Shown in pieces: positions 1 through 31,554 of a DNA stretch of 64,000 bases (positions within the stretch are counted from its first letter, which is position 1; each line of letters opens with the position of its first letter). Both the position numbers and the translations under genes were made by a program. Location: contig NZ_OX030782.1 of assembly GCF_943733665.1 (NCBI RefSeq), forward strand, positions 640,001 to 704,000, read 5' to 3'. The notes below the pieces were generated by a model. That model ran no database searches. It saw only the letters and a list, made by a program, of their open reading frames with translations, and was not told where the DNA came from. This stretch comes from Aquimarina sp. Aq107. Its GTDB lineage: Bacteria; Bacteroidota; Bacteroidia; Flavobacteriales; Flavobacteriaceae.

Positions 1-3000
1 ACCAGCGATTAGTGTATAGGACTGTGTAGTTTGTGCTGTATAGTCATCCCCATCAATTGCTGTTGCATCAGATGTAGTAAGAATAAATATGATATTTTCT
101 TCCGCTGGTATATTACTAGTTACCGTAAAGTTTTCTGTTTGTGTAGCTTCATTTTCAGTGATTGTAAATCCTGCAATGCTCAGTTCCAGACTATCATTAT
201 CAAGTATTTCTGCTGTTCCTTGGTTCTCTGTAATAGTTATTCCTGTTTGTCCATTGGTTTGTAGATTGCTTAGATTCACAAAATAGGTTTCCGTAGGTTC
301 CGCAATGTTATTATCAAGTATAGTTACACTAAAGGTTTGTATATTGTTATTAGTTCCTCCAAAGGTCAGTGTTGTTGCGGCTATTGTTGTATAATCATCA
401 CCTGTGATTGCTGTATTATCAGCAGTACTGTAATCTATGGTAAAGTCGTTCTGTACATTCCCTGTTAGTGTAACCGTAAAAGTAGCTGTTCCATCATCTT
501 CATTGACACTTACATCATTGATACTTAAAGTAACAGTATCATTATCAAGTATTTCTGCTGTTGCGGTATCTGTTGTAATAGCTACTTGTTGAGCATTAGT
601 ATTGGTAAGAGCTATAGTTCCAGTAAATGTTTCTGTAGGTTCAGCTATAAGATCTCCCAGTATAGATACAGGTAAATTAATAGCTGTTTGACCAGCGATT
701 AGTGTATAGGACTGTGTAGTTTGTGCTGTATAGTCATCCCCATCAATCGCTGTTGCATCAGATGTAGTAAGAGTAAATATGATATTTTCTTCCGCTGGTA
801 TATTACTAGTTACCGTAAAGTTTTCTGTTTGTGTAGCTTCATTTTCAGTGATTGTAAATCCTGCAATGCTCAGTTCCAGACTATCATTATCAAGTATTTC
901 TGCTGTTACGGTATCTGTTGTAATAGTTACTTGTTGAGCATTAGTATTGGTAAGAGCTATAGTTCCAGTAAATGTTTCTGTAGGTTCAGCAATAAGATCT
1001 CCCAGTATAGATACAGGTAAATTAATAGCTGTTTGACCAGCGATTAGTGTATAGGACTGTGTAGTTTGTGCTGTATAGTCATCCCCATCAATTGCTGTTG
1101 CATCAGATGTAGTAAGAGTAAATATGATATTTTCTTCCGCTGGTATATTACTAGTTACCGTAAAGTTTGTTGTTTGTGTAGCTTCATTTTCAGTGATTGT
1201 AAATCCTGCAATGCTCAGTTCCATACTATCATTATCAAGTATTTCTGCTGTTGCGGTATCTGTTGTAATAGCTACTTGTTGAGCATTAGCATTGGTAAGA
1301 GCTATAGTTCCAGTAAATGTTTCTGTAGGTTCAGCAATAAGATCTCCCAGTATAGATACAGGTAAATTAATAGCTGTTTGACCAGCGATTAGTGTATAGG
1401 ACTGTGTAGTTTGTGCTGTATAGTCATCCCCATCAATTGCTGTTGCATCAGATGTAGTAAGAGTAAATATGATATTTTCTTCCGCTGGTATATTACTAGT
1501 TACCGTAAAGTTTGCTGTTTGTGTAGCTTCATTTTCAGTGATTGTAAATCCTGCAATGCTCAGTTCCAGACTATCATTATCAAGTATTTCTGCTGTTGCG
1601 GTATCTGTTGTAATAGTTACTTGTTGAGCATTAGTATTGGTAAGAGCTATAGTTCCAGTAAATGTTTCTGTAGGTTCAGCAATAAGATCTCCCAGTATAG
1701 ATACAGGTAAATTAATAGCTGTTTGACCAGCGATTAGTGTATAGGACTGTGTAGTTTGTGCTGTATAGTCATCCCCATCAATTGCTGTTGCATCAGATGT
1801 AGTAAGAGTAAATATGATATTTTCTTCCGCTGGTATATTACTAGTTACCGTAAAGTTTGCTGTTTGTGTAGCTTCATTTTCAGTGACTGTAAATCCTGCA
1901 ATGCTCAGTTCCAGACTATCATTATCAAGTATTTCTGCTGTTACGGTATCTGTTGTAATAGTTACTTGTTGAGCATTAGTATTGGTAAGAGCTATAGTTC
2001 CAGTAAATGTTTCTGTAGGTTCAGCAATAAGATCTCCCAGTATAGATACAGGTAAATTAATAGCTGTCTGACCAGCGATTAGTGTATAGGACTGTGTAGT
2101 TTGTGCTGTATAGTCATCCCCATCAATTGCTGTTGCATCAGATGTAGTAAGAGTAAATATGATATTTTCTTCCGCTGGTATATTACTAGTTACCGTAAAG
2201 TTTGCTGTTTGTGTAGCTTCATTTTCAGTGATTGTAAATCCTGCAATGCTCAGTTCCAGACTATCATTATCAAGTATTTCTGCTGTTGCGGTATCTGTTA
2301 TAATAGCTACTTGTTGAGCATTAGTATTGGTAAGAGCTATAGTTCCAGTAAATGTTTCTGTAGGTTCAGCTATAAGATCTCCCAGTATAGATACAGGTAA
2401 ATTAATAGCTGTCTGACCAGCGATTAGTGTATAGGATTGTGTAGTTTGTGCTGTATAGTCATCCCCATCAATTGCTGTTGCATCAGATGTAGTAAGAGTA
2501 AATATGATATTTTCTTCCGCTGGTATATTACTAGTTACCGTAAAGTTTGCTGTTTGTGTAGCTTCATTTTCAGTGATTGTAAATCCTGCAATGCTCAGTT
2601 CCAGACTATCATTATCAAGTATTTCTGCTGTTGCGGTATCTGTTGTAATGGCTACTTGTTGAGCATTAGCATTGGTAAGAGCTATAGTTCCAGTAAATGT
2701 TTCTGTAGGTTCAGCAATAAGATCTCCCAGTATAGATACAGGTAAATTAATAGCTGTTTGACCAGCGATTAGTGTATAGGACTGTGTAGTTTGTGCTGTA
2801 TAGTCATCCCCATCAATCGCTGTTGCATCAGATGTAGTAAGAGTAAATATGATATTTTCTTCCGCTGGTATATTACTAGTTACCGTAAAGTTTGCTGTTT
2901 GTGTAGCTTCATTTTCAGTGATTGTAAATCCTGCAATGCTCAGTTCCAGACTATCATTATCAAGTATTTCTGCTGTTGCGGTATCTGTTGTAATAGCTAC

Positions 3001-6000
3001 TTGTTGAGCATTAGTATTGGTAAGAGCTATAGTTCCAGTAAATGTTTCTGTAGGTTCAGCTATAAGATCCCCCAGTATAGATACAGGTAAATTAATAGCT
3101 GTCTGACCAGCGATTAGTGTATAGGACTGTGTAGTTTGTGCTGTATAGTCATCCCCATCAATTGCTGTTGCATCAGATGTAGTAAGAGTAAATATGATAT
3201 TTTCTTCCGCTGGTATATTACTAGTTACCGTAAAGTTTGCTGTTTGTGTAGCTTCATTTTCAGTGATTGTAAATCCTGCAATGCTCAGTTCCAGACTATC
3301 ATTATCAAGTATTTCTGCTGTTGCGGTATCTGTTGTAATAGTTACTTGTTGAGCATTAGTATTGGTAAGAGCTATAGTTCCAGTAAATGTTTCTGTAGGT
3401 TCAGCTATAAGATCCCCCAGTATAGATACAGGTAAATTAATAGCTGTCTGACCAGCGATTAGTGTATAGGATTGTGTAGTTTGTGCTGTATAGTCATCCC
3501 CATCAATTGCTGTTGCATCAGATGTAGTAAGAGTAAATATGATATTTTCTTCCGCTGGTATATTACTAGTTACCGTAAAGTTTGCTGTTTGTGTAGCTTC
3601 ATTTTCAGTGATTGTAAATCCTGCAATGCTCAGTTCCAGACTATCATTATCAAGTATTTCTGCTGTTGCGGTATCTGTTGTAATGGCTACTTGTTGAGCA
3701 TTAGCATTGGTAAGAGCTATAGTTCCAGTAAATGTTTCTGTAGGTTCAGCAATAAGATCTCCCAGTATAGATACAGGTAAATTAATAGCTGTTTGACCAG
3801 CGATTAGTGTATAGGACTGTGTAGTTTGTGCTGTATAGTCATCCCCATCAATTGCTGTTGCATCAGATGTAGTAAGAGTAAATATGATATTTTCTTCCGC
3901 TGGTATATTACTAGTTACCGTAAAGTTTGTTGTTTGTGTAGCTTCATTTTCAGTGATTGTAAATCCTGCAATGCTCAGTTCCATACTATCATTATCAAGT
4001 ATTTCTGCTGTTGCGGTATCTGTTGTAATAGCTACTTGTTGAGCATTAGCATTGGTAAGAGCTATAGTTCCAGTAAATGTTTCTGTAGGTTCAGCAATAA
4101 GATCTCCCAGTATAGATACAGGTAAATTAATAGCTGTTTGACCAGCGATTAGTGTATAGGACTGTGTAGTTTGTGCTGTATAGTCATCCCCATCAATTGC
4201 TGTTGCATCAGATGTAGTAAGAGTAAATATGATATTTTCTTCCGCTGGTATATTACTAGTTACCGTAAAGTTTGCTGTTTGTGTAGCTTCATTTTCAGTG
4301 ATTGTAAATCCTGCAATGCTCAGTTCCATACTATCATTATCAAGTATTTCTGCTGTTGCGGTATCTGTTGTAATAGTTACTTGTTGAGCATTAGTATTGG
4401 TAAGAGCTATAGTTCCAGTAAATGTTTCTGTAGGTTCAGCAATAAGATCTCCCAGTATAGATACAGGTAAATTAATAGCTGTTTGACCAGCGATTAGTGT
4501 ATAGGACTGTGTAGTTTGTGCTGTATAGTCATCCCCATCAATTGCTGTTGCATCAGATGTAGTAAGAGTAAATATGATATTTTCTTCCGCTGGTATATTA
4601 CTAGTTACCGTAAAGTTTGCTGTTTGTGTAGCTTCATTTTCAGTGATTGTAAATCCTGCAATGCTCAGTTCCATACTATCATTATCAAGTATTTCTGCTG
4701 TTGCGGTATCTGTTGTAATAGCTACTTGTTGAGCATTAGCATTGGTAAGAGCTATAGTTCCAGTAAATGTTTCTGTAGGTTCAGCTATAAGATCTCCCAG
4801 TATAGATACAGGTAAATTAATAGCTGTCTGACCAGCGATTAGTGTATAGGACTGTGTAGTTTGTGCTGTATAGTCATCCCCATCAATTGCTGTTGCATCA
4901 GATGTAGTAAGAGTAAATATGATATTTTCTTCCGCTGGTATATTACTAGTTACCGTAAAGTTTGCTGTTTGTGTAGCTTCATTTTCAGTGATTGTAAATC
5001 CTGCAATGCTCAGTTCCAGACTATCATTATCAAGTATTTCTGCTGTTGCGGTATCTGTTATAATAGCTACTTGTTGAGCATTAGTATTGGTAAGAGCTAT
5101 AGTTCCAGTAAATGTTTCTGTAGGTTCAGCTATAAGATCCCCCAGTATAGATACAGGTAAATTAATAGCTGTCTGACCAGCGATTAGTGTATAGGATTGT
5201 GTAGTTTGTGCTGTATAGTCATCCCCATCAATTGCTGTTGCATCAGATGTAGTAAGAGTAAATATGATATTTTCTTCCGCTGGTATATTACTAGTTACCG
5301 TAAAGTTTGCTGTTTGTGTAGCTTCATTTTCAGTGATTGTAAATCCTGCAATGCTCAGTTCCATACTATCATTATCAAGTATTTCTGCTGTTGCGGTATC
5401 TGTTGTAATGGCTACTTGTTGAGCATTAGCATTGGTAAGAGCTATAGTTCCAGTAAATGTTTCTGTAGGTTCAGCTATAAGATCTCCCAGTATAGATACA
5501 GGTAAATTAATAGCTGTTTGACCAGCGATTAGTGTATAGGACTGTGTAGTTTGTGCTGTATAGTCATCCCCATCAATCGCTGTTGCATCAGATGTAGTAA
5601 GAGTAAATATGATATTTTCTTCCGCTGGTATATTACTAGTTACCGTAAAGTTTGCTGTTTGTGTAGCTTCATTTTCAGTGATTGTAAATCCTGCAATGCT
5701 CAGTTCCAGACTATCATTATCAAGTATTTCTGCTGTTGCGGTATCTGTTGTAATAGCTACTTGTTGAGCATTAGTATTGGTAAGAGCTATAGTTCCAGTA
5801 AATGTTTCTGTAGGTTCAGCTATAAGATCTCCCAGTATAGATACAGGTAAATTAATAGCTGTTTGACCAGCGATTAGTGTATAGGACTGTGTAGTTTGTG
5901 CTGTATAGTCATCCCCATCAATCGCTGTTGCATCAGATGTAGTAAGAGTAAATATGATATTTTCTTCCGCTGGTATATTACTAGTTACCGTAAAGTTTTC

Positions 6001-9000
6001 TGTTTGTGTAGCTTCATTTTCAGTGATTGTAAATCCTGCAATGCTCAGTTCCAGACTATCATTATCAAGTATTTCTGCTGTTACGGTATCTGTTGTAATA
6101 GTTACTTGTTGAGCATTAGTATTGGTAAGAGCTATAGTTCCAGTAAATGTTTCTGTAGGTTCAGCAATAAGATCTCCCAGTATAGATACAGGTAAATTAA
6201 TAGCTGTCTGACCAGCGATTAGTGTATAGGACTGTGTAGTTTGTGCTGTATAGTCATCCCCATCAATTGCTGTTGCATCAGATGTAGTAAGAGTAAATAT
6301 GATATTTTCTTCCGCTGGTATATTACTAGTTACCGTAAAGTTTGCTGTTTGTGTAGCTTCATTTTCAGTGATTGTAAATCCTGCAATGCTCAGTTCCAGA
6401 CTATCATTATCAAGTATTTCTGCTGTTGCGGTATCTGTTATAATAGCTACTTGTTGAGCATTAGTATTGGTAAGAGCTATAGTTCCAGTAAATGTTTCTG
6501 TAGGTTCAGCTATAAGATCTCCCAGTATAGATACAGGTAAATTAATAGCTGTCTGACCAGCGATTAGTGTATAGGATTGTGTAGTTTGTGCTGTATAGTC
6601 ATCCCCATCAATTGCTGTTGCATCAGATGTAGTAAGAGTAAATATGATATTTTCTTCCGCTGGTATATTACTAGTTACCGTAAAGTTTGCTGTTTGTGTA
6701 GCTTCATTTTCAGTGATTGTAAATCCTGCAATGCTCAGTTCCAGACTATCATTATCAAGTATTTCTGCTGTTGCGGTATCTGTTGTAATGGCTACTTGTT
6801 GAGCATTAGCATTGGTAAGAGCTATAGTTCCAGTAAATGTTTCTGTAGGTTCAGCAATAAGATCTCCCAGTATAGATACAGGTAAATTAATAGCTGTTTG
6901 ACCAGCGATTAGTGTATAGGACTGTGTAGTTTGTGCTGTATAGTCATCCCCATCAATTGCTGTTGCATCAGATGTAGTAAGAGTAAATATGATATTTTCT
7001 TCCGCTGGTATATTACTAGTTACCGTAAAGTTTGTTGTTTGTGTAGCTTCATTTTCAGTGATTGTAAATCCTGCAATGCTCAGTTCCATACTATCATTAT
7101 CAAGTATTTCTGCTGTTGCGGTATCTGTTGTAATAGCTACTTGTTGAGCATTAGCATTGGTAAGAGCTATAGTTCCAGTAAATGTTTCTGTAGGTTCAGC
7201 AATAAGATCTCCCAGTATAGATACAGGTAAATTAATAGCTGTTTGACCAGCGATTAGTGTATAGGACTGTGTAGTTTGTGCTGTATAGTCATCCCCATCA
7301 ATTGCTGTTGCATCAGATGTAGTAAGAGTAAATATGATATTTTCTTCCGCTGGTATATTACTAGTTACCGTAAAGTTTGCTGTTTGTGTAGCTTCATTTT
7401 CAGTGATTGTAAATCCTGCAATGCTCAGTTCCAGACTATCATTATCAAGTATTTCTGCTGTTGCGGTATCTGTTGTAATAGTTACTTGTTGAGCATTAGT
7501 ATTGGTAAGAGCTATAGTTCCAGTAAATGTTTCTGTAGGTTCAGCAATAAGATCTCCCAGTATAGATACAGGTAAATTAATAGCTGTTTGACCAGCGATT
7601 AGTGTATAGGACTGTGTAGTTTGTGCTGTATAGTCATCCCCATCAATTGCTGTTGCATCAGATGTAGTAAGAGTAAATATGATATTTTCTTCCGCTGGTA
7701 TATTACTAGTTACCGTAAAGTTTGCTGTTTGTGTAGCTTCATTTTCAGTGACTGTAAATCCTGCAATGCTCAGTTCCAGACTATCATTATCAAGTATTTC
7801 CCCTGTTCCTTGGTTCTCTGTAATAGTTATTCCTGTTTGTCCATTGGTTTGTAGATTGCTTAGATTCACAAAATAGGTTTCCGTAGGTTCCGCAATGTTA
7901 TTATCAAGTATAGTTACACTAAAGGTTTGTATATTGTTATTAGTTCCTCCAAAGGTCAGTGTTGTTGCGGCTATTGTTGTATAATCATCACCTGTGATTG
8001 CTGTATTATCAGCAGTACTGTAATCTATGGTAAAGTCGTTCTGTACATTCCCTGTTAGCGTAACCGTAAAAGTAGCTGTTCCATCATCTTCATTGACACT
8101 TACATCATTGATACTTAAAGTAGCAGTATCATTATCAAGTATTTCTGCTGTTGCGGTATCTGTTGTAATAGCTACTTGTTGAGCATTAGTATTGGTAAGA
8201 GCTATAGTTCCAGTAAATGTTTCTGTAGGTTCAGCAATAAGATCTCCCAGTATAGATACAGGTAAATTAATAGCTGTCTGACCAGCGATTAGTGTATAGG
8301 ACTGTGTAGTTTGTGCTGTATAGTCATCCCCATCAATTGCTGTTGCATCAGATGTAGTAAGAGTAAATATGATATTTTCTTCCGCTGGTATATTACTAGT
8401 TACCGTAAAGTTTGCTGTTTGTGTAGCTTCATTTTCAGTGATTGTAAATCCTGCAACGCTCAGTTCCAGACTATCATTATCAAGTATTTCTGCTGTTGCG
8501 GTATCTGTTGTAATAGTTACTTGTTGAGCATTAGCATTGGTAAGAGCTATAGTTCCAGTAAATGTTTCTGTAGGTTCAGCAATAAGATCTCCCAGTATGG
8601 ATACAGGTAAATTAATAGCTGTCTGACCAGCGATTAGTGTATAGGACTGTGTAGTTTGTGCTGTATAGTCATCCCCATCAATTGCTGTTGCATCAGATGT
8701 AGTAAGAGTAAATATGATATTTTCTTCCGCTGGTATATTACTAGTTACCGTAAAGTTTGCTGTTTGTGTAGCTTCATTTTCAGTGATTGTAAATCCTGCA
8801 ATGCTCAGTTCCAGACTATCATTATCAAGTATTTCCCCTGTTCCTTGGTTCTCTGTAATAGTTATTCCTGTTTGTCCATTGGTTTGTAGATTGCTTAGAT
8901 TCACAAAATAGGTTTCCGTAGGTTCCGCAATGTTATTATCAAGTATAGTTACACTAAAGGTTTGTATATTGTTATTAGTTCCTCCAAAGGTCAGTGTTGT

Positions 9001-10539
9001 TGCGGCTATTGTTGTATAATCATCACCTGTGATTGCTGTATTATCAGCAGTACTGTAATCTATGGTAAAGTCGTTCTGTACATTCCCTGTTAGTGTAACC
9101 GTAAAAGTAGCTGTTCCATCATCTTCATTGACACTTACATCATTGATACTTAAAGTAGCAGTATCATTATCAAGTATTTCTGCTGTTGCGGTATCTGTTG
9201 TAATGGTTACTTGTTGAGCATTAGCATTGGTAAGAGCTATAGTTCCAGTAAATGTTTCTGTAGGTTCAGCTATAAGATCCCCCAGTATAGATACAGGTAA
9301 ATTAATAGCTGTCTGACCAGCGATTAGTGTATAGGACTGTGTAGTTTGTGCTGTATAGTCATCCCCATCAATTGCTGTTGCATCAGATGTAGTAAGAGTA
9401 AATATGATATTTTCTTCCGCTGGTATATTACTAGTTACCGTAAAGTTTGCTGTTTGTGTAGCTTCATTTTCAGTGATTGTAAATCCTGCAATGCTCAGTT
9501 CCAGACTATCATTATCAAGTATTTCTGCTGTTGCGGTATCTGTTGTAATAGTTACTTGTTGAGCATTAGTATTGGTAAGAGCTATAGTTCCAGTAAATGT
9601 TTCTGTAGGTTCAGCTATAAGATCCCCCAGTATAGATACAGGTAAATTAATAGCTGTCTGACCAGCGATTAGTGTATAGGATTGTGTAGTTTGTGCTGTA
9701 TAGTCATCCCCATCAATTGCTGTTGCATCAGATGTAGTAAGAGTAAATATGATATTTTCTTCCGCTGGTATATTACTAGTTACCGTAAAGTTTGCTGTTT
9801 GTGTAGCTTCATTTTCAGTGATTGTAAATCCTGCAATGCTCAGTTCCAGACTATCATTATCAAGTATTTCTGCTGTTGCGGTATCTGTTGTAATGGCTAC
9901 TTGTTGAGCATTAGCATTGGTAAGAGCTATAGTTCCAGTAAATGTTTCTGTAGGTTCAGCAATAAGATCTCCCAGTATAGATACAGGTAAATTAATAGCT
10001 GTTTGACCAGCGATTAGTGTATAGGACTGTGTAGTTTGTGCTGTATAGTCATCCCCATCAATTGCTGTTGCATCAGATGTAGTAAGAGTAAATATGATAT
10101 TTTCTTCCGCTGGTATATTACTAGTTACCGTAAAGTTTGTTGTTTGTGTAGCTTCATTTTCAGTGATTGTAAATCCTGCAATGCTCAGTTCCATACTATC
10201 ATTATCAAGTATTTCTGCTGTTGCGGTATCTGTTGTAATAGCTACTTGTTGAGCATTAGCATTGGTAAGAGCTATAGTTCCAGTAAATGTTTCTGTAGGT
10301 TCAGCAATAAGATCTCCCAGTATAGATACAGGTAAATTAATAGCTGTTTGACCAGCGATTAGTGTATAGGACTGTGTAGTTTGTGCTGTATAGTCATCCC
10401 CATCAATTGCTGTTGCATCAGATGTAGTAAGAGTAAATATGATATTTTCTTCCGCTGGTATATTACTAGTTACCGTAAAGTTTGCTGTTTGTGTAGCTTC
10501 ATTTTCAGTGATTGTAAATCCTGCAATGCTCAGTTCCAT
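1..10539 (-). CDS. Giant Calx-beta repeat protein, continuation toward the C-terminus (partial, runs off left edge)
   Basis: This is the same reading frame as the giant gene to its right: codons end on the same position modulo three and the frame is open to position 1, where it still reads YTLIAG of the repeat unit. It consists entirely of 115-residue Calx-beta units, about thirty in this stretch, with no start-site features of its own. The first in-frame ATG is the Met of SMELS at 10539, which is internal to a repeat and is not a credible translation start. Three 1-nt insertions between 10585 and 10756 separate it from the N-terminal part; together they add three bases, so the frame is restored. 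I regard it as the same gene split by assembly errors. The protein's end and any T9SS sorting domain lie left of the window. Confidence 0.8.
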   Translation of the reverse strand, partial: MELSIAGFTITENEATQTANFTVTSNIPAEENIIFTLTTSDATAIDGDDYTAQTTQSYTLIAGQTAINLPVSILGDLIAEPTETFTGTIALTNANAQQVAITTDTATAEILDNDSMELSIAGFTITENEATQTTNFTVTSNIPAEENIIFTLTTSDATAIDGDDYTAQTTQSYTLIAGQTAINLPVSILGDLIAEPTETFTGTIALTNANAQQVAITTDTATAEILDNDSLELSIAGFTITENEATQTANFTVTSNIPAEENIIFTLTTSDATAIDGDDYTAQTTQSYTLIAGQTAINLPVSILGDLIAEPTETFTGTIALTNTNAQQVTITTDTATAEILDNDSLELSIAGFTITENEATQTANFTVTSNIPAEENIIFTLTTSDATAIDGDDYTAQTTQSYTLIAGQTAINLPVSILGDLIAEPTETFTGTIALTNANAQQVTITTDTATAEILDNDTATLSINDVSVNEDDGTATFTVTLTGNVQNDFTIDYSTADNTAITGDDYTTIAATTLTFGGTNNNIQTFSVTILDNNIAEPTETYFVNLSNLQTNGQTGITITENQGTGEILDNDSLELSIAGFTITENEATQTANFTVTSNIPAEENIIFTLTTSDATAIDGDDYTAQTTQSYTLIAGQTAINLPVSILGDLIAEPTETFTGTIALTNANAQQVTITTDTATAEILDNDSLELSVAGFTITENEATQTANFTVTSNIPAEENIIFTLTTSDATAIDGDDYTAQTTQSYTLIAGQTAINLPVSILGDLIAEPTETFTGTIALTNTNAQQVAITTDTATAEILDNDTATLSINDVSVNEDDGTATFTVTLTGNVQNDFTIDYSTADNTAITGDDYTTIAATTLTFGGTNNNIQTFSVTILDNNIAEPTETYFVNLSNLQTNGQTGITITENQGTGEILDNDSLELSIAGFTVTENEATQTANFTVTSNIPAEENIIFTLTTSDATAIDGDDYTAQTTQSYTLIAGQTAINLPVSILGDLIAEPTETFTGTIALTNTNAQQVTITTDTATAEILDNDSLELSIAGFTITENEATQTANFTVTSNIPAEENIIFTLTTSDATAIDGDDYTAQTTQSYTLIAGQTAINLPVSILGDLIAEPTETFTGTIALTNANAQQVAITTDTATAEILDNDSMELSIAGFTITENEATQTTNFTVTSNIPAEENIIFTLTTSDATAIDGDDYTAQTTQSYTLIAGQTAINLPVSILGDLIAEPTETFTGTIALTNANAQQVAITTDTATAEILDNDSLELSIAGFTITENEATQTANFTVTSNIPAEENIIFTLTTSDATAIDGDDYTAQTTQSYTLIAGQTAINLPVSILGDLIAEPTETFTGTIALTNTNAQQVAIITDTATAEILDNDSLELSIAGFTITENEATQTANFTVTSNIPAEENIIFTLTTSDATAIDGDDYTAQTTQSYTLIAGQTAINLPVSILGDLIAEPTETFTGTIALTNTNAQQVTITTDTVTAEILDNDSLELSIAGFTITENEATQTENFTVTSNIPAEENIIFTLTTSDATAIDGDDYTAQTTQSYTLIAGQTAINLPVSILGDLIAEPTETFTGTIALTNTNAQQVAITTDTATAEILDNDSLELSIAGFTITENEATQTANFTVTSNIPAEENIIFTLTTSDATAIDGDDYTAQTTQSYTLIAGQTAINLPVSILGDLIAEPTETFTGTIALTNANAQQVAITTDTATAEILDNDSMELSIAGFTITENEATQTANFTVTSNIPAEENIIFTLTTSDATAIDGDDYTAQTTQSYTLIAGQTAINLPVSILGDLIAEPTETFTGTIALTNTNAQQVAIITDTATAEILDNDSLELSIAGFTITENEATQTANFTVTSNIPAEENIIFTLTTSDATAIDGDDYTAQTTQSYTLIAGQTAINLPVSILGDLIAEPTETFTGTIALTNANAQQVAITTDTATAEILDNDSMELSIAGFTITENEATQTANFTVTSNIPAEENIIFTLTTSDATAIDGDDYTAQTTQSYTLIAGQTAINLPVSILGDLIAEPTETFTGTIALTNTNAQQVTITTDTATAEILDNDSMELSIAGFTITENEATQTANFTVTSNIPAEENIIFTLTTSDATAIDGDDYTAQTTQSYTLIAGQTAINLPVSILGDLIAEPTETFTGTIALTNANAQQVAITTDTATAEILDNDSMELSIAGFTITENEATQTTNFTVTSNIPAEENIIFTLTTSDATAIDGDDYTAQTTQSYTLIAGQTAINLPVSILGDLIAEPTETFTGTIALTNANAQQVAITTDTATAEILDNDSLELSIAGFTITENEATQTANFTVTSNIPAEENIIFTLTTSDATAIDGDDYTAQTTQSYTLIAGQTAINLPVSILGDLIAEPTETFTGTIALTNTNAQQVTITTDTATAEILDNDSLELSIAGFTITENEATQTANFTVTSNIPAEENIIFTLTTSDATAIDGDDYTAQTTQSYTLIAGQTAINLPVSILGDLIAEPTETFTGTIALTNTNAQQVAITTDTATAEILDNDSLELSIAGFTITENEATQTANFTVTSNIPAEENIIFTLTTSDATAIDGDDYTAQTTQSYTLIAGQTAINLPVSILGDLIAEPTETFTGTIALTNANAQQVAITTDTATAEILDNDSLELSIAGFTITENEATQTANFTVTSNIPAEENIIFTLTTSDATAIDGDDYTAQTTQSYTLIAGQTAINLPVSILGDLIAEPTETFTGTIALTNTNAQQVAIITDTATAEILDNDSLELSIAGFTITENEATQTANFTVTSNIPAEENIIFTLTTSDATAIDGDDYTAQTTQSYTLIAGQTAINLPVSILGDLIAEPTETFTGTIALTNTNAQQVTITTDTVTAEILDNDSLELSIAGFTVTENEATQTANFTVTSNIPAEENIIFTLTTSDATAIDGDDYTAQTTQSYTLIAGQTAINLPVSILGDLIAEPTETFTGTIALTNTNAQQVTITTDTATAEILDNDSLELSIAGFTITENEATQTANFTVTSNIPAEENIIFTLTTSDATAIDGDDYTAQTTQSYTLIAGQTAINLPVSILGDLIAEPTETFTGTIALTNANAQQVAITTDTATAEILDNDSMELSIAGFTITENEATQTTNFTVTSNIPAEENIIFTLTTSDATAIDGDDYTAQTTQSYTLIAGQTAINLPVSILGDLIAEPTETFTGTIALTNTNAQQVTITTDTVTAEILDNDSLELSIAGFTITENEATQTENFTVTSNIPAEENIIFTLTTSDATAIDGDDYTAQTTQSYTLIAGQTAINLPVSILGDLIAEPTETFTGTIALTNTNAQQVAITTDTATAEILDNDTVTLSINDVSVNEDDGTATFTVTLTGNVQNDFTIDYSTADNTAITGDDYTTIAATTLTFGGTNNNIQTFSVTILDNNIAEPTETYFVNLSNLQTNGQTGITITENQGTAEILDNDSLELSIAGFTITENEATQTENFTVTSNIPAEENIIFILTTSDATAIDGDDYTAQTTQSYTLIAG

Positions 10540-10584
10540 ACTATCATTATCAAGTATTTCTGCTGTTGCGGTATCTGTTGTAAT
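5578..10584. repeat. Left copy of a ~5.0-kb block duplicated at 10756-15762
   Basis: The succession of 345-bp units, their variant bases and the two type B modules match those of 10756-15762 at a constant offset of 5,178 bp. That offset is fifteen units (5,175 bp) plus the three inserted bases at the junction. I compared unit fingerprints and many individual variant sites, not every base. The block is flanked on the left by the unit starting near 5197 and on the right by the anomalous junction unit at 10585-10756. Confidence 0.85.
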
Positions 10585-10756
10585 AGGCTACTTGTTGAGC
10601 ATTAGCATTGGTAAGAGCTATAGTTCCAGTAAATGTTTCTGTAGGTTCAGCTAATAAGATCTCCCAGTATAGATACAGGTAAATTAATAGCTGTTTGACC
10701 AGCGATTAGTGTATAGGACTGTGTAGTTTGTGCTGTATAGTCATCCCCATCAATTC
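10585..10756. other. Junction with three 1-nt insertions, each carrying both alleles of a variable repeat site
   Basis: Units of the array carry either A or G in taat[A/G]gcta, T or A in cagc[T/A]ataag, and T or C in caat[T/C]gctg. Here the sequence reads taatAGgcta (10585/86), cagcTAataag (10652/53) and caatTCgctg (10755/56): both alleles side by side at all three sites. The G/T/C combination is that of the unit just left of the duplicated block (5197-5578). The A/A/T combination is that of the unit just right of it (15904 to the start of the next). The three insertions break the giant ORF and sum to +3. Confidence 0.85.
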
Positions 10757-13700
10757 GCTGTTGCATCAGATGTAGTAAGAGTAAATATGATATTTTCTTC
10801 CGCTGGTATATTACTAGTTACCGTAAAGTTTGCTGTTTGTGTAGCTTCATTTTCAGTGATTGTAAATCCTGCAATGCTCAGTTCCAGACTATCATTATCA
10901 AGTATTTCTGCTGTTGCGGTATCTGTTGTAATAGCTACTTGTTGAGCATTAGTATTGGTAAGAGCTATAGTTCCAGTAAATGTTTCTGTAGGTTCAGCTA
11001 TAAGATCTCCCAGTATAGATACAGGTAAATTAATAGCTGTTTGACCAGCGATTAGTGTATAGGACTGTGTAGTTTGTGCTGTATAGTCATCCCCATCAAT
11101 CGCTGTTGCATCAGATGTAGTAAGAGTAAATATGATATTTTCTTCCGCTGGTATATTACTAGTTACCGTAAAGTTTTCTGTTTGTGTAGCTTCATTTTCA
11201 GTGATTGTAAATCCTGCAATGCTCAGTTCCAGACTATCATTATCAAGTATTTCTGCTGTTACGGTATCTGTTGTAATAGTTACTTGTTGAGCATTAGTAT
11301 TGGTAAGAGCTATAGTTCCAGTAAATGTTTCTGTAGGTTCAGCAATAAGATCTCCCAGTATAGATACAGGTAAATTAATAGCTGTCTGACCAGCGATTAG
11401 TGTATAGGACTGTGTAGTTTGTGCTGTATAGTCATCCCCATCAATTGCTGTTGCATCAGATGTAGTAAGAGTAAATATGATATTTTCTTCCGCTGGTATA
11501 TTACTAGTTACCGTAAAGTTTGCTGTTTGTGTAGCTTCATTTTCAGTGATTGTAAATCCTGCAATGCTCAGTTCCAGACTATCATTATCAAGTATTTCTG
11601 CTGTTGCGGTATCTGTTATAATAGCTACTTGTTGAGCATTAGTATTGGTAAGAGCTATAGTTCCAGTAAATGTTTCTGTAGGTTCAGCTATAAGATCTCC
11701 CAGTATAGATACAGGTAAATTAATAGCTGTCTGACCAGCGATTAGTGTATAGGATTGTGTAGTTTGTGCTGTATAGTCATCCCCATCAATTGCTGTTGCA
11801 TCAGATGTAGTAAGAGTAAATATGATATTTTCTTCCGCTGGTATATTACTAGTTACCGTAAAGTTTGCTGTTTGTGTAGCTTCATTTTCAGTGATTGTAA
11901 ATCCTGCAATGCTCAGTTCCAGACTATCATTATCAAGTATTTCTGCTGTTGCGGTATCTGTTGTAATGGCTACTTGTTGAGCATTAGCATTGGTAAGAGC
12001 TATAGTTCCAGTAAATGTTTCTGTAGGTTCAGCAATAAGATCTCCCAGTATAGATACAGGTAAATTAATAGCTGTTTGACCAGCGATTAGTGTATAGGAC
12101 TGTGTAGTTTGTGCTGTATAGTCATCCCCATCAATTGCTGTTGCATCAGATGTAGTAAGAGTAAATATGATATTTTCTTCCGCTGGTATATTACTAGTTA
12201 CCGTAAAGTTTGTTGTTTGTGTAGCTTCATTTTCAGTGATTGTAAATCCTGCAATGCTCAGTTCCATACTATCATTATCAAGTATTTCTGCTGTTGCGGT
12301 ATCTGTTGTAATAGCTACTTGTTGAGCATTAGCATTGGTAAGAGCTATAGTTCCAGTAAATGTTTCTGTAGGTTCAGCAATAAGATCTCCCAGTATAGAT
12401 ACAGGTAAATTAATAGCTGTTTGACCAGCGATTAGTGTATAGGACTGTGTAGTTTGTGCTGTATAGTCATCCCCATCAATTGCTGTTGCATCAGATGTAG
12501 TAAGAGTAAATATGATATTTTCTTCCGCTGGTATATTACTAGTTACCGTAAAGTTTGCTGTTTGTGTAGCTTCATTTTCAGTGATTGTAAATCCTGCAAT
12601 GCTCAGTTCCAGACTATCATTATCAAGTATTTCTGCTGTTGCGGTATCTGTTGTAATAGTTACTTGTTGAGCATTAGTATTGGTAAGAGCTATAGTTCCA
12701 GTAAATGTTTCTGTAGGTTCAGCAATAAGATCTCCCAGTATAGATACAGGTAAATTAATAGCTGTTTGACCAGCGATTAGTGTATAGGACTGTGTAGTTT
12801 GTGCTGTATAGTCATCCCCATCAATTGCTGTTGCATCAGATGTAGTAAGAGTAAATATGATATTTTCTTCCGCTGGTATATTACTAGTTACCGTAAAGTT
12901 TGCTGTTTGTGTAGCTTCATTTTCAGTGACTGTAAATCCTGCAATGCTCAGTTCCAGACTATCATTATCAAGTATTTCCCCTGTTCCTTGGTTCTCTGTA
13001 ATAGTTATTCCTGTTTGTCCATTGGTTTGTAGATTGCTTAGATTCACAAAATAGGTTTCCGTAGGTTCCGCAATGTTATTATCAAGTATAGTTACACTAA
13101 AGGTTTGTATATTGTTATTAGTTCCTCCAAAGGTCAGTGTTGTTGCGGCTATTGTTGTATAATCATCACCTGTGATTGCTGTATTATCAGCAGTACTGTA
13201 ATCTATGGTAAAGTCGTTCTGTACATTCCCTGTTAGCGTAACCGTAAAAGTAGCTGTTCCATCATCTTCATTGACACTTACATCATTGATACTTAAAGTA
13301 GCAGTATCATTATCAAGTATTTCTGCTGTTGCGGTATCTGTTGTAATAGCTACTTGTTGAGCATTAGTATTGGTAAGAGCTATAGTTCCAGTAAATGTTT
13401 CTGTAGGTTCAGCAATAAGATCTCCCAGTATAGATACAGGTAAATTAATAGCTGTCTGACCAGCGATTAGTGTATAGGACTGTGTAGTTTGTGCTGTATA
13501 GTCATCCCCATCAATTGCTGTTGCATCAGATGTAGTAAGAGTAAATATGATATTTTCTTCCGCTGGTATATTACTAGTTACCGTAAAGTTTGCTGTTTGT
13601 GTAGCTTCATTTTCAGTGATTGTAAATCCTGCAACGCTCAGTTCCAGACTATCATTATCAAGTATTTCTGCTGTTGCGGTATCTGTTGTAATAGTTACTT

Positions 13701-16700
13701 GTTGAGCATTAGCATTGGTAAGAGCTATAGTTCCAGTAAATGTTTCTGTAGGTTCAGCAATAAGATCTCCCAGTATGGATACAGGTAAATTAATAGCTGT
13801 CTGACCAGCGATTAGTGTATAGGACTGTGTAGTTTGTGCTGTATAGTCATCCCCATCAATTGCTGTTGCATCAGATGTAGTAAGAGTAAATATGATATTT
13901 TCTTCCGCTGGTATATTACTAGTTACCGTAAAGTTTGCTGTTTGTGTAGCTTCATTTTCAGTGATTGTAAATCCTGCAATGCTCAGTTCCAGACTATCAT
14001 TATCAAGTATTTCCCCTGTTCCTTGGTTCTCTGTAATAGTTATTCCTGTTTGTCCATTGGTTTGTAGATTGCTTAGATTCACAAAATAGGTTTCCGTAGG
14101 TTCCGCAATGTTATTATCAAGTATAGTTACACTAAAGGTTTGTATATTGTTATTAGTTCCTCCAAAGGTCAGTGTTGTTGCGGCTATTGTTGTATAATCA
14201 TCACCTGTGATTGCTGTATTATCAGCAGTACTGTAATCTATGGTAAAGTCGTTCTGTACATTCCCTGTTAGTGTAACCGTAAAAGTAGCTGTTCCATCAT
14301 CTTCATTGACACTTACATCATTGATACTTAAAGTAGCAGTATCATTATCAAGTATTTCTGCTGTTGCGGTATCTGTTGTAATGGTTACTTGTTGAGCATT
14401 AGCATTGGTAAGAGCTATAGTTCCAGTAAATGTTTCTGTAGGTTCAGCTATAAGATCCCCCAGTATAGATACAGGTAAATTAATAGCTGTCTGACCAGCG
14501 ATTAGTGTATAGGACTGTGTAGTTTGTGCTGTATAGTCATCCCCATCAATTGCTGTTGCATCAGATGTAGTAAGAGTAAATATGATATTTTCTTCCGCTG
14601 GTATATTACTAGTTACCGTAAAGTTTGCTGTTTGTGTAGCTTCATTTTCAGTGATTGTAAATCCTGCAATGCTCAGTTCCAGACTATCATTATCAAGTAT
14701 TTCTGCTGTTGCGGTATCTGTTGTAATAGTTACTTGTTGAGCATTAGTATTGGTAAGAGCTATAGTTCCAGTAAATGTTTCTGTAGGTTCAGCTATAAGA
14801 TCCCCCAGTATAGATACAGGTAAATTAATAGCTGTCTGACCAGCGATTAGTGTATAGGATTGTGTAGTTTGTGCTGTATAGTCATCCCCATCAATTGCTG
14901 TTGCATCAGATGTAGTAAGAGTAAATATGATATTTTCTTCCGCTGGTATATTACTAGTTACCGTAAAGTTTGCTGTTTGTGTAGCTTCATTTTCAGTGAT
15001 TGTAAATCCTGCAATGCTCAGTTCCAGACTATCATTATCAAGTATTTCTGCTGTTGCGGTATCTGTTGTAATGGCTACTTGTTGAGCATTAGCATTGGTA
15101 AGAGCTATAGTTCCAGTAAATGTTTCTGTAGGTTCAGCAATAAGATCTCCCAGTATAGATACAGGTAAATTAATAGCTGTTTGACCAGCGATTAGTGTAT
15201 AGGACTGTGTAGTTTGTGCTGTATAGTCATCCCCATCAATTGCTGTTGCATCAGATGTAGTAAGAGTAAATATGATATTTTCTTCCGCTGGTATATTACT
15301 AGTTACCGTAAAGTTTGTTGTTTGTGTAGCTTCATTTTCAGTGATTGTAAATCCTGCAATGCTCAGTTCCATACTATCATTATCAAGTATTTCTGCTGTT
15401 GCGGTATCTGTTGTAATAGCTACTTGTTGAGCATTAGCATTGGTAAGAGCTATAGTTCCAGTAAATGTTTCTGTAGGTTCAGCAATAAGATCTCCCAGTA
15501 TAGATACAGGTAAATTAATAGCTGTTTGACCAGCGATTAGTGTATAGGACTGTGTAGTTTGTGCTGTATAGTCATCCCCATCAATTGCTGTTGCATCAGA
15601 TGTAGTAAGAGTAAATATGATATTTTCTTCCGCTGGTATATTACTAGTTACCGTAAAGTTTGCTGTTTGTGTAGCTTCATTTTCAGTGATTGTAAATCCT
15701 GCAATGCTCAGTTCCATACTATCATTATCAAGTATTTCTGCTGTTGCGGTATCTGTTGTAATAGTTACTTGTTGAGCATTAGTATTGGTAAGAGCTATAG
15801 TTCCAGTAAATGTTTCTGTAGGTTCAGCAATAAGATCTCCCAGTATAGATACAGGTAAATTAATAGCTGTTTGACCAGCGATTAGTGTATAGGACTGTGT
15901 AGTTTGTGCTGTATAGTCATCCCCATCAATTGCTGTTGCATCAGATGTAGTAAGAGTAAATATGATATTTTCTTCCGCTGGTATATTACTAGTTACCGTA
16001 AAGTTTGCTGTTTGTGTAGCTTCATTTTCAGTGATTGTAAATCCTGCAATGCTCAGTTCCATACTATCATTATCAAGTATTTCTGCTGTTGCGGTATCTG
16101 TTGTAATAGCTACTTGTTGAGCATTAGCATTGGTAAGAGCTATAGTTCCAGTAAATGTTTCTGTAGGTTCAGCAATAAGATCTCCCAGTATAGATACAGG
16201 TAAATTAATAGCTGTTTGACCAGCGATTAGTGTATAGGACTGTGTAGTTTGTGCTGTATAGTCATCCCCATCAATTGCTGTTGCATCAGATGTAGTAAGA
16301 GTAAATATGATATTTTCTTCCGCTGGTATATTACTAGTTACCGTAAAGTTTGCTGTTTGTGTAGCTTCATTTTCAGTGACTGTAAATCCTGCAATGCTCA
16401 GTTCCAGACTATCATTATCAAGTATTTCCCCTGTTCCTTGGTTCTCTGTAATAGTTATTCCTGTTTGTCCATTGGTTTGTAGATTGCTTAGATTCACAAA
16501 ATAGGTTTCCGTAGGTTCCGCAATGTTATTATCAAGTATAGTTACACTAAAGGTTTGTATATTGTTATTAGTTCCTCCAAAGGTCAGTGTTGTTGCGGCT
16601 ATTGTTGTATAATCATCACCTGTGATTGCTGTATTATCAGCAGTACTGTAATCTATGGTAAAGTCGTTCTGTACATTCCCTGTTAGCGTAACCGTAAAAG

Positions 16701-19700
16701 TAGCTGTTCCATCATCTTCATTGACACTTACATCATTGATACTTAAAGTAGCAGTATCATTATCAAGTATTTCGCCAATAGCAGAAAGATTATTAACATT
16801 ACCGTTTAGGGTAATACTTTGACCATTTGTTACTAGGTTGTTAATAGTTCCATTTAGAGTTTCGCTTGGCTCAATAATAGTATCATCAGTAATTGGAACG
16901 CTTACTGTTTGACTTTCTGAGTTTGATCCTCCAAATGTCAGAAGAGTAGTTGTAATTTCTGTATAATCAGATCCAGCAATTGCAGAGATATCAGAAGTAA
17001 GGAATTCTAATGTTATTTCATTTTGTATTGCTTTATCTGTTGAAATTGTAAAATCAGCAGAGCCAATATTTTCACTTACATTAAAACCCGTTATAGAAAT
17101 TATGGCATCATCATCATTGGTAATAGTTCCAACAGCGGAATCATCACTAAAGGTAATGGATGAATTTGGAGCTGATACTGTAGTGATATTACTTAAGTTT
17201 ACTAAGAAGGATTCATCTAGTTCTATAATTTCGTCTCCGTTAATAGTAATCTCAATAGTTTCTTGTTCGTTTGCTAAACCCTCGAATGTTAGTGTTCCTA
17301 TATTAGCCACATAATCAGAGTTAGCAGTTGTTGCTGTTCCATCAGCAGTAGTATAATCAACGGTTAAGCCATCTTCAACTTCTCCACTTAGTTCTGCGGT
17401 AAATGTGAGTAAAGATGTACCTGAGTTTCCTTCTGTTATAGATACATCAGAAATAGATAAAGAAGAACTATCATCATTGATAATGGTACCGACACCGGTT
17501 TTTCCTGCAGGATCAATAGTAATATCTTTGCCTGGAGCAATTACACTATTAAGCACCACATTAAATGTTTCATTAATCTCTACTGCAGTATCTCCATTAA
17601 CAGATATTGTGATGATCTGTGTTTCTCCGATAGCACCAGTTGCGAAATTAATAACACCTCCATTGGCTGTAAAATCGGATGGTGCTCTGGCTTCAACATT
17701 AGAAGTAAAGAATGTCACCCCATATCCACCAACAACTTCAGCACCAGAATGAGTAACGGTAAACTCATAATCAATCGTTCCTGAGTCACCTTCAGTCTCT
17801 GTGACACTATCAATAGAAAGAAGAGCTGCATCATCATCTGTATTATTAACAGCTACATCATCAGGATCTAGTAGATCATAATTATCATCCGTAGTTAATG
17901 TTGTATTTATTGTATTTACAATGGTATATGGGATACTACCGTCTACAAGAATGTCATCTATACCTGTTACAGTCACAGTTTGTGGAATATTCCAGTTTGC
18001 AACAGTAAACGTTAAAGAAGATGTATCTACTGTCCCTTCATTTGTATTATTACTTGCCACATCTATAATTACGACACGATCTTCTATATCAGAAGCTGGT
18101 CGACTGGTTAATACAATCGTATATGTAGCTGTTGCTCCAGTTTCAGAAGTGGTTATTGAAGTAGGAGTGACAATAAACCCTGCATTATCGTTATCTTCAT
18201 TAATAACACTAACATCATCCACAACCAACGAATCATATTTAGGATCTGAAGAAGTCGTATTACTAGTAACTATAGTATATGTAATATCTCCATCCACAAT
18301 ATCATCATCTTTACCCGTAACAGTTACAATTTGAGGATTATCCCAATCTGCAGGTATAAATGTTAAGGAAACAGGACTAAACGTATCGCTTTCAGTTAGG
18401 TCATTACTAGAAAGGGTGATAGTAACATTTTCTGTAGGTTCAGTATTAAGGACAACGGTAAAGGTAGCAGTGCCATTATTTTCAGTAGTATTACCAGAAA
18501 TTGCAGATACAGTTACGCCTGCAGTATCATTATCTAAATTTATGGCAGCAACATCTGCTGGGTCAACATTTTCATATCCTGATAAATCATCAGTTGCAGC
18601 TTGATCCGTAGTTAAGATGATGTTATAATTAATATCACCGTCATCAAGATCATCATTAACACCTGTTATAGTTACTGTCTGAGGTATATTCCAATTAGAT
18701 GCATTAAATGTTAGTGTATTAGCAGATACAGTTCCTTCTGTAAGATCATCACTCGATACATTAAAAACTACATTTCCAGAAGGCGCAAAAGGTAATACAA
18801 CTGTAAAGGTATCTGTTGTTAAATCTTCTGAAGTTTGTATAGAAGTTTCTGAAACGATAACCGTATTATCGGGTAATGCATTTATGGTTACTAAGAAGGT
18901 ACACGTTTCTGTATTCCCAGCTGTATCCTCGGCAGTATAGGTTACTGTAGTTGTTCCTAAATTAAAACTAATACTACTCAATTCATTGATTCCCGATGCC
19001 TGAGCAGCTGAAGTTGTTGCACCTGAAAGTTCATAAGTCAATTTGGTTACGGCACAATTATCTGCATATGTTGGAGCAGGAATACCGGAAACTACAACAG
19101 ACGAATCCCCTCCATTATCAACATCCTGAATAATATTTGATGGACAAGAAATCGTTGGTGTTTCATTATCAGTAACAATGACGTTAAAATTAACTGTTCC
19201 TGTATTAGACGGAGAAGCATTATCTGATACCGTCCAAGTTACGGTAGTGGTTCCAGGTTCAAAAATTTGACCGTTTAGGGTAGTATTGACCCCTGTAACT
19301 ACTGTAGTAGCTCCCGTTAGTGTATAAGTAATTGTTGGATTAGGATCACAATTGTCAATTGGATTCCAAGTATTGTCTGTATGTGTATAGGTACATACAT
19401 TAGTATCTGTAACTACATTTCTATCTGTTAAATCATCCAAAGTAGGGGATTGTGTATCTTCTACGATAACTGTAGTGCTGCACACATTGGTACGTCCAGA
19501 AGAATCAGTAACCCTTAAATAAACAGTGTTAGTTCCAATTTCAGAACAAATATATGTTAATGATGAACTATATGTAATATCATCTTTTGATATTTCATAG
19601 ATAGAAATGGAACAATTATCAGTAGAATTATTGTCTATATCTGTTGTTGTTAAGGATGCTGTACCATCTCTTAGTAACTGAATGGTGGCTGTTTGACATA

Positions 19701-22700
19701 TTGCCACCGGATCTTCGGTATCTGTTACTGTTACTGTATAAGAACAACTGTTGCTATTATTTTCTGCATCTAAAACCGTCCAGATTACAGTAGTAGTCCC
19801 CTGTTCAAATATTTGTCCATTAAGATCGGTGTTAGTTCCTGTGATAGTGGTTGTAGCACCAGTAAGAGTGTAGGTTAATACAGGTGAGGTGTCGCAATTA
19901 TCAGTAGCAATAGGGTTTAAGCTATTATCAGGATTTGTATAGTTACAAAGAGCATTGTCTGTTACTACGGATTGGTTTGATGGACAGGTAGTGAATACAG
20001 GAGATATGTTATCTTCTACCGTTACAATTGCAGTACAAGTCGATTGATTTCCATTAACATCTGTAACGGTTAATGTTACTGTGTTTTGACCTATGTCTGA
20101 ACAATCAAAAGAATTTTGATCAACGGTAAATAGGTTTATTCCACAAGAGTCTGAAGAACCATTATCTAAATCTTGTGCTAAAATATTAGCATCTCCGAAT
20201 TCATCTAATTGGATGGTGATATCTTGACAAACTGCAATTGGGGGTGTAATATCTTGAACGGTTATCGTTGTTGTACAACTATTGGTGTTCCCGGCAATAT
20301 CAGTTATTGTAAGTGTAACTGTATTGTCACCTATTTCAGCGCATGAAAATGTATTGGGCGATACACTTGCTGTAAAATTAGGGCAGTTATCCGAGGATCC
20401 AAAAGCAATTGAATCTACATCTATATTAGATAGGTTATAGGTTCCGTTAGCATCTAATTGAATCGTAATTGGAGTGCAGGAAACAACGGGGTTTATAGTG
20501 TCTTGAACAGTGACAATTACATTATCAGTTGTTATATTTCCACTAGTATCAGTAACCGTTAGTGTAACAGTATTTGTGCCAAAATCAGCACATGTAAAAT
20601 CAGTTTTATCAATTACTAAACTTTGGATTCCACAATTATCCGAAGAACCATTGTTAATATCATTTGCAGTAATGCTTACCGTGCCGCTAGCATCTAATTG
20701 TATAGATATATCCTGACCAATAGCAATTGGGGGTGTTGTGTCATTAACAGTAACAGTATAAGAACATTGAGAAGAAACACCACTACCATCAATTGCTGTC
20801 CAGGTTACTGTAGTAATACCAGTATTAAATAGTTGTCCATTTAAAGAAGTATTTGTTGGATTATCGGCTAATATTGTATCTCCAGATAGGGCATAAGTAA
20901 GATCATTTATAGTAATACATCCGTCAGAAGCAGTGGCATCCCAGGCTGTACCACTATGTTCATATCCACATTTATCACTATCAGTTCCGACGATCTGCGA
21001 TGCAATACACGTTATTATAGGAGCGATATCATCTTCTACGGTTACCAATGCAGTAGCTGTAGATACATTATTATTAACATCTGTTACTGTAAGAGTAACA
21101 GTATTTGTAGCTGGATTAGCTCCAAGATTAGAGCAATCAAAATCAGTTATGTCTAGTGTTATAGAAGCTATGCCACAACTATCAGAAGAACCATTATCAA
21201 TATCAGCCGGAGTTATAGCAGCGTTACCTATATTATCCAAGTTTATAGTAATGTCTTGTGCAAGAGCAATAGGAGGAACATTGTCTTCTACAGTTACAAT
21301 AGCGGTACAAGTATCTGAATTACCTGTAGTGTCTGTGATCGTTAAAGTAACTGTGTTCGCACCAACATCGTTACAATCAAAATCATTTTTACTTAGTGTC
21401 CTTACTAGAGAATCCTGACAATTATCAAAAGAGCCATTATCAATATCTAAACCTGTAATACTAACATTACCTGTAGCATCAAGATCAACAGTAATATTTT
21501 GGCAAACCGCCACAGGATCGATATCATCCAGGATTGTTACTATGGCATCACAAGTATTACTATTTCCAGCAAGATCTGTTACTGTTAGAGTTACGGTATT
21601 TGTTCCTAGATTTGTACAATCAAAAGTTGTCTCACTAATTGCCAGACTAACAGCTCCACATGCATCAGATGATCCATTATTGATATCTTCTGGGGTTATA
21701 CTAGCATTTCCAAAGGCATCTAAAACAATAGATATAGGAGTACATAAGGCAGTAGGAGGTGTTACATCCTCTACTGTTAATGTTGCATTACAACTACTGA
21801 TATTTCCGTTGTTATCGGTTACGGTTAGTGTTACAGTATTTAATCCTATTTCAGTACATGTAAATGTATTTGGTGTGATTACCAAACTAGCAATTCCACT
21901 AGGATCCGAGGTTCCTAAAGAAATTGCGTTAATATTGTCCGTTGTTAACGCATAATTTCCAGTGTTATCTAATTGTATGGTGATGTCATTACACACTACT
22001 GTTGGATCTTCATCATCGGTAATGATGACTTGATATGTGCCTGTATTTGTATTACCGTTTACATCGGTAGCTTCCCAGACGACATCATGAACTCCAATTC
22101 CAAAACTTTCTCCAATAATAGAGGTTGACAGATCGGTTCCAATAATACTTCCTCCATCAATCTGATAGGTTATGGTTAGTAAATCGCAGTTATCAGTAGC
22201 AGGAATGTCCCACGATGAATCGGTTGTATTTGTTGCTGTATAGGTGTTAAATCCAGTGTTTAAACTTCTTGTTTGTGTAGCTATAGTAACGAAGGTTGGA
22301 CTTTGTGTATCTGTGATAGTAAATTCTGTAGTACAGGTAGCACTTACGTTATCGCTTGTGTCATATAAACGCCAAAGTACTGTGATATTAGGATTAGCTA
22401 TGGTTCCCACAGGAATTTGTTCTCCCGATAGGGTGGTGCTTAAATCTGATCCAATTTCTGCCGCTCCATTTATAGAATATGTGAGTCTTGATAAACCAGC
22501 GTTATCTTCGAAAGAAAAAGGATCAAATTCTGAACCGACAACTTGATAATAACATTCCCCAGCTTCAGCATTTTGCGCTACTGTAGCATCCGGACAATTA
22601 TTTATCACAGGTAACTCCGTATCTGTAATCACTACATCAATACTACATGAAAAAGCATTGTTGCTATCATCTGTAGCGGTCCAATTAACCATTGTAGTTC

Positions 22701-31548: not shown

Positions 31549-31554
31549 TCTCAA

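Follow-up and report, generated by a model that had tools for sequence, protein, structure and literature searches.

The window analysed here is a stretch of 64,000 nucleotides from the genome of Aquimarina sp. Aq107, which is assembled as one contig (Table 1). This contig closes from position 5500051 to position 1 as a circle; its first position falls midway through an RND efflux gene, and it was not rotated to dnaA. The minus strand of the window carries a giant adhesin gene, which begins at 31554 with HYR domains in 15 stretches, continues into a long array of Calx-beta units (profile match to PF03160, E = 6e-22 for two units) and ends, left of the window, with a T9SS type B sorting domain (TIGR04131, Bac_Flav_CTERM). 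The match to TIGR04131 scored 36.7 bits against a cut-off of 35, the sequence tested being the C-terminal piece at contig 637796-640000. As assembled, the gene measures about 33.8 kb, or about 11,250 codons (contig 637796 to window 31554), which is very large for a bacterium, and its true length is uncertain by about 5.2 kb (15 units); the adhesin itself would have about 11,000 residues.

A single uninterrupted frame for the adhesin is absent from the assembly. The gene is broken at 10540-10749, and only there, into an N-terminal part and a C-terminal ORF of 4,263 codons. The first-pass annotation of this DNA had stated that three single-base insertions break the giant ORF. The minus-strand ORF is indeed interrupted, but the insertions amount to a net gain of three bases, which restores the frame, so that the shifted reading is limited to about 170 bp, a stretch that contains stops. 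Homologous proteins of relatives have long open frames. In Aquimarina macrocephali, the nearest named relative (83% identity over the stretch adjoining the array), the frame of the ortholog is open through the units up to the end of the contig inside the array (12326-12517 of the locus in that species), and the fact that this contig ends within the array shows that the array does break assemblies. A search for a second genome of the same species found none, the relatives found being other species. The remaining genes of the window look intact, so the assembly is not error-ridden throughout, a point against an artefact.

The array itself is built of units of 345 bp. This length is kept exactly by 46 of the 48 units, the exceptions being unit 10351 with 347 bp and unit 10698 with 346 bp, and three doubled bases are the sole indels among all 48. 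The array also contains, as a mosaic, a second type of unit: interspersed units in which about 95-110 of the 345 positions are unlike the consensus. Within the array a block of 5,010 bp is present in two copies without a single mismatch (0 over 5,010 bp), at a lag of 5178, that is, 15 x 345 + 3. The second-longest exact repeat of the array measures 1,770 bp (3016-4785 = 14404-16173). The first 1,361 bp of this repeat recur at 9226-10586, ending exactly at the seam of the two block copies, and this stretch is thus found in three copies around the suspected mis-join. Scanned for promoters and terminators, the seam gave one weak terminator-like site and no excess of promoters.

Table 1. Features of the adhesin locus. 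Positions are those of the window unless the contig is named.
Feature	Position	Strand	Remarks
Window under study	contig 640001-704000		one circular contig of 5,500,051 bp
Tandem array of 345-bp Calx-beta units	1..16435 (in window)	-	TRF, PF03160; extends left past window
Off-consensus units	1/346, 7591/7936, 8626/8971, 12769/13114, 13804/14149, 16219		adjacent pairs, split at same point
C-terminal part of adhesin gene as assembled	1..10539	-	extends left beyond window to contig 637796
N-terminal part of adhesin gene as assembled	10750..31554	-	6,934 codons; HYR domains first, Calx-beta units after them
Left flank of block (one putative blend parent)	5198..5576		without indels
Block copy 1	5577..10586		about 15 units
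Putative blend zone, outer limits	10373..10886		measured against in-register right flank
Doubled site 1	10585..10586		AG = right-flank A (15763) + left-flank G (5410)
Doubled site 2	10652..10653		TA = left-flank T (5476) + right-flank A (15829)
Doubled site 3	10755..10756		TC = right-flank T (15931) + left-flank C (5578)
Block copy 2	10755..15764		exact match to copy 1
Right flank of block (other putative blend parent)	15765..16218		units 15529 + 15874; without indels

All three array indels fall inside 171 bp, at the seam. As the first-pass annotation had noticed, each of the dinucleotides AG, TA and TC holds both alleles side by side. The flanks carry one each: both parents are clean, the left with only G, T and C and the right with only A, A and T at these sites. 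In a walk along the junction on the plus strand, we observed right-type alleles only at 10306, 10315, 10348 and 10372 and left-type alleles only from 10887 onward, and between these two parts both alleles stand adjacent at the three sites (10585-10756). A single clean switch of alleles, as in a real unequal crossover, is not seen, as three sites carry both.

It had further been claimed that the left unit and the right unit, the latter placed at 15904, differ at these same three positions. The right unit actually starts at 15874, and against it the count of three is correct; against the in-register unit 15529, on the other hand, the left flank shows five differences, at 5410, 5412, 5430, 5476 and 5578 (range 5198-5708). 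The claim of exactly three differences thus hinges on the choice of the right-hand comparison unit. Parental differences are doubled at the junction in three cases out of three when unit 15874 is used, and in three out of five when unit 15529 is used; at 5412 and 5430, both of them C/T, the junction shows nothing but the left allele. Its second haplotype is that of unit 15874 at 18 of the 18 polymorphic sites compared.

From this arrangement of letters we consider it highly probable that the three extra bases are a consensus artefact of assembly rather than a biological frameshift. One alternative is that they are real mutations which split the adhesin gene in this strain; after all, the assembly does contain these letters, the ORF is interrupted at them, and without selection a gene of this kind could be lost from a laboratory strain. 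In a random model of three one-base insertions in the junction stretch, with 541 distinct outcomes, the chance that all three double a flank allele came to 3e-7 with three sites and 3e-6 with five, and to 5e-5 when any array-polymorphic site was allowed. This range, 3e-7 to 5e-5, supports the earlier contention that three independent mutations would not give such a pattern. Real mutations are also opposed by the lack of any further indel in the 48 units and by the otherwise open frame of both halves. A T9SS sorting domain needs an export signal on the same protein, and the second half would end in a sorting domain that is useless without the export signal of the first. We therefore regard real mutations as extremely improbable. 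The stop codon of the N-terminal part sits within the blend zone, and in the living cell the adhesin gene is probably one open frame.

In the mechanism that we propose for the consensus artefact, sequences from two places of the array, either reads or contig ends, would have been overlaid, namely from the left flank (~5410-5578) and from the right flank (~15763-15931), with the near-identical next unit (15874) as an alternative right-hand source; either the in-register flank or unit 15874 works as the supplier of the right alleles. The consensus step would have retained both alleles as neighbouring bases at three sites, choosing neither, and the contig ends would have been joined at a similar but wrong unit, whereby the 15-unit block was written twice. 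The seam would then have no reads of its own and would recruit reads from both parents, which fits the observation that both parents are clean. Since a real unequal crossover gives one clean switch, the order of right-type, both and left-type alleles speaks for a blend, and this order, together with the clean parents, supports the merging of both flanks by consensus that had been put forward on first reading. Because the doubling sits at the join of two perfectly identical copies, we think that the 15-unit duplication is probably false and the block single in the cell, a conclusion which follows less strictly than the consensus blend. In long-read assemblies, false duplications at contig boundaries are documented, frameshifting short indels arise from consensus calling, and duplicated copies attract reads during polishing (PMC8081667).

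How far a blend reproduces the actual letters depends on the scoring. For a 50:50 mixture, retaining both alleles is the best consensus only where the cost of a base that a read lacks is low beside that of a mismatch and of an extra base. With the left flank and unit 15874, the junction text was then among eight equally best consensus strings; with the left flank and unit 15529 under the same scoring, the junction text was not among the best strings. Against the blend, several simple gap scorings of a half-and-half mix do not favour doubled bases, and linear scoring with the in-register flank would double five sites instead of three. Equal-cost gap scoring was rejected as the source of the doubling, as it yields ties only.

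A further lead comes from the order in which nucleotides are flowed over the template. The nucleotide flow order TACG was that of 454 pyrosequencing, and the Ion Torrent order begins with it. In a flow model, a substitution either alters two flows within the same cycles (synchronous) or shifts the cycle count. Under TACG and with the in-register flank, the sites that were flow-synchronous on both strands were the three doubled ones and no others, 5412 and 5430 not being among them; averaged signals, rounded up, reproduced the junction letters exactly. None of the five other flow orders tested fits. The chance of the TACG fit is 1 in 80 (three doubled sites of five, with free order within each pair), and about 58% of random substitutions are synchronous under TACG. 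Since the fit was spotted after the doublets had been seen, we take it as a lead to the platform and no proof. Both the merge step and the sequencing platform are what we infer. A literature search on the sequencing method of the strain returned papers which cover other Aquimarina strains (ERC-38, 4.43 Mb, PMC10163077; A. muelleri, 5.32 Mb, PMC12509623).

Two further explanations accept a consensus error at the seam and differ in what the cell contains. The 15-unit duplication could be real, having arisen by recent unequal crossing-over between sister arrays, and the junction unit could have been mis-called through reads of the left flank and of other near-identical units. Exact recent duplications do occur in arrays, this array holds other exact repeats of up to 1,770 bp, and the circular contig closes elsewhere. 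Foreign reads should, however, contaminate the two flanks as much as the junction, yet both flanks are clean, and a true junction unit would be covered by reads of its own and would change alleles once, cleanly. We hold a real duplication to be rather unlikely for these reasons; even so, it still makes the three bases an artefact. Alternatively, the culture may have been a mixture of cells differing in the number of array units through natural variation in array length, with a consensus that blended two true variants. The agreement of the second haplotype with unit 15874 at all compared sites looks as if a subpopulation had lost unit 15529. A flow-type consensus with the in-register flank gives the same pattern, though, and there would be no need for variation in a population to fall only at the seam between exact copies, so that a mixed culture appears improbable. 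It is scarcely credible that the DNA itself holds the doubled alleles as the outcome of an array recombination that kept both mismatch bases, a templated insertion disrupting the gene at a fresh duplication junction. We also considered the seam as the circularisation join and rejected it: the end of the contig runs in frame into its start, inside the RND efflux gene, and no repeat of its first 1.5 kb is present at the other end.

As biology the finding is of low interest; its use lies in a warning about assembly quality and in a read-free diagnostic. The adhesin gene ought not to be entered among the pseudogenes, and the unit count of the array (at least 48 in the assembly, possibly 15 fewer) as well as the protein length are unverified. 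Furthermore, the succession of right-type, both-adjacent and left-type alleles offers a way of testing repeat arrays for blended joins which works without reads and could be applied across public genomes.

The case resembles the homotype false duplication described at the contig boundaries of overlap-layout-consensus assemblies (PMC8081667), with the same exact duplicate beside a join and the same short-indel frameshift errors in the consensus. The cases in that study come from vertebrate genomes and have read-level proof, whereas ours concerns a bacterial repeat gene and is drawn from the assembled sequence alone. The adhesin, for its part, is an ordinary type of giant flavobacterial surface protein: like the T9SS type B giant Calx-beta/HYR surface proteins of Flavobacteriaceae, it has N-terminal HYR domains, a long Calx-beta array and a C-terminal Bac_Flav_CTERM domain, and compared with them only its length is unusual, and that length carries an uncertainty of 15 units.
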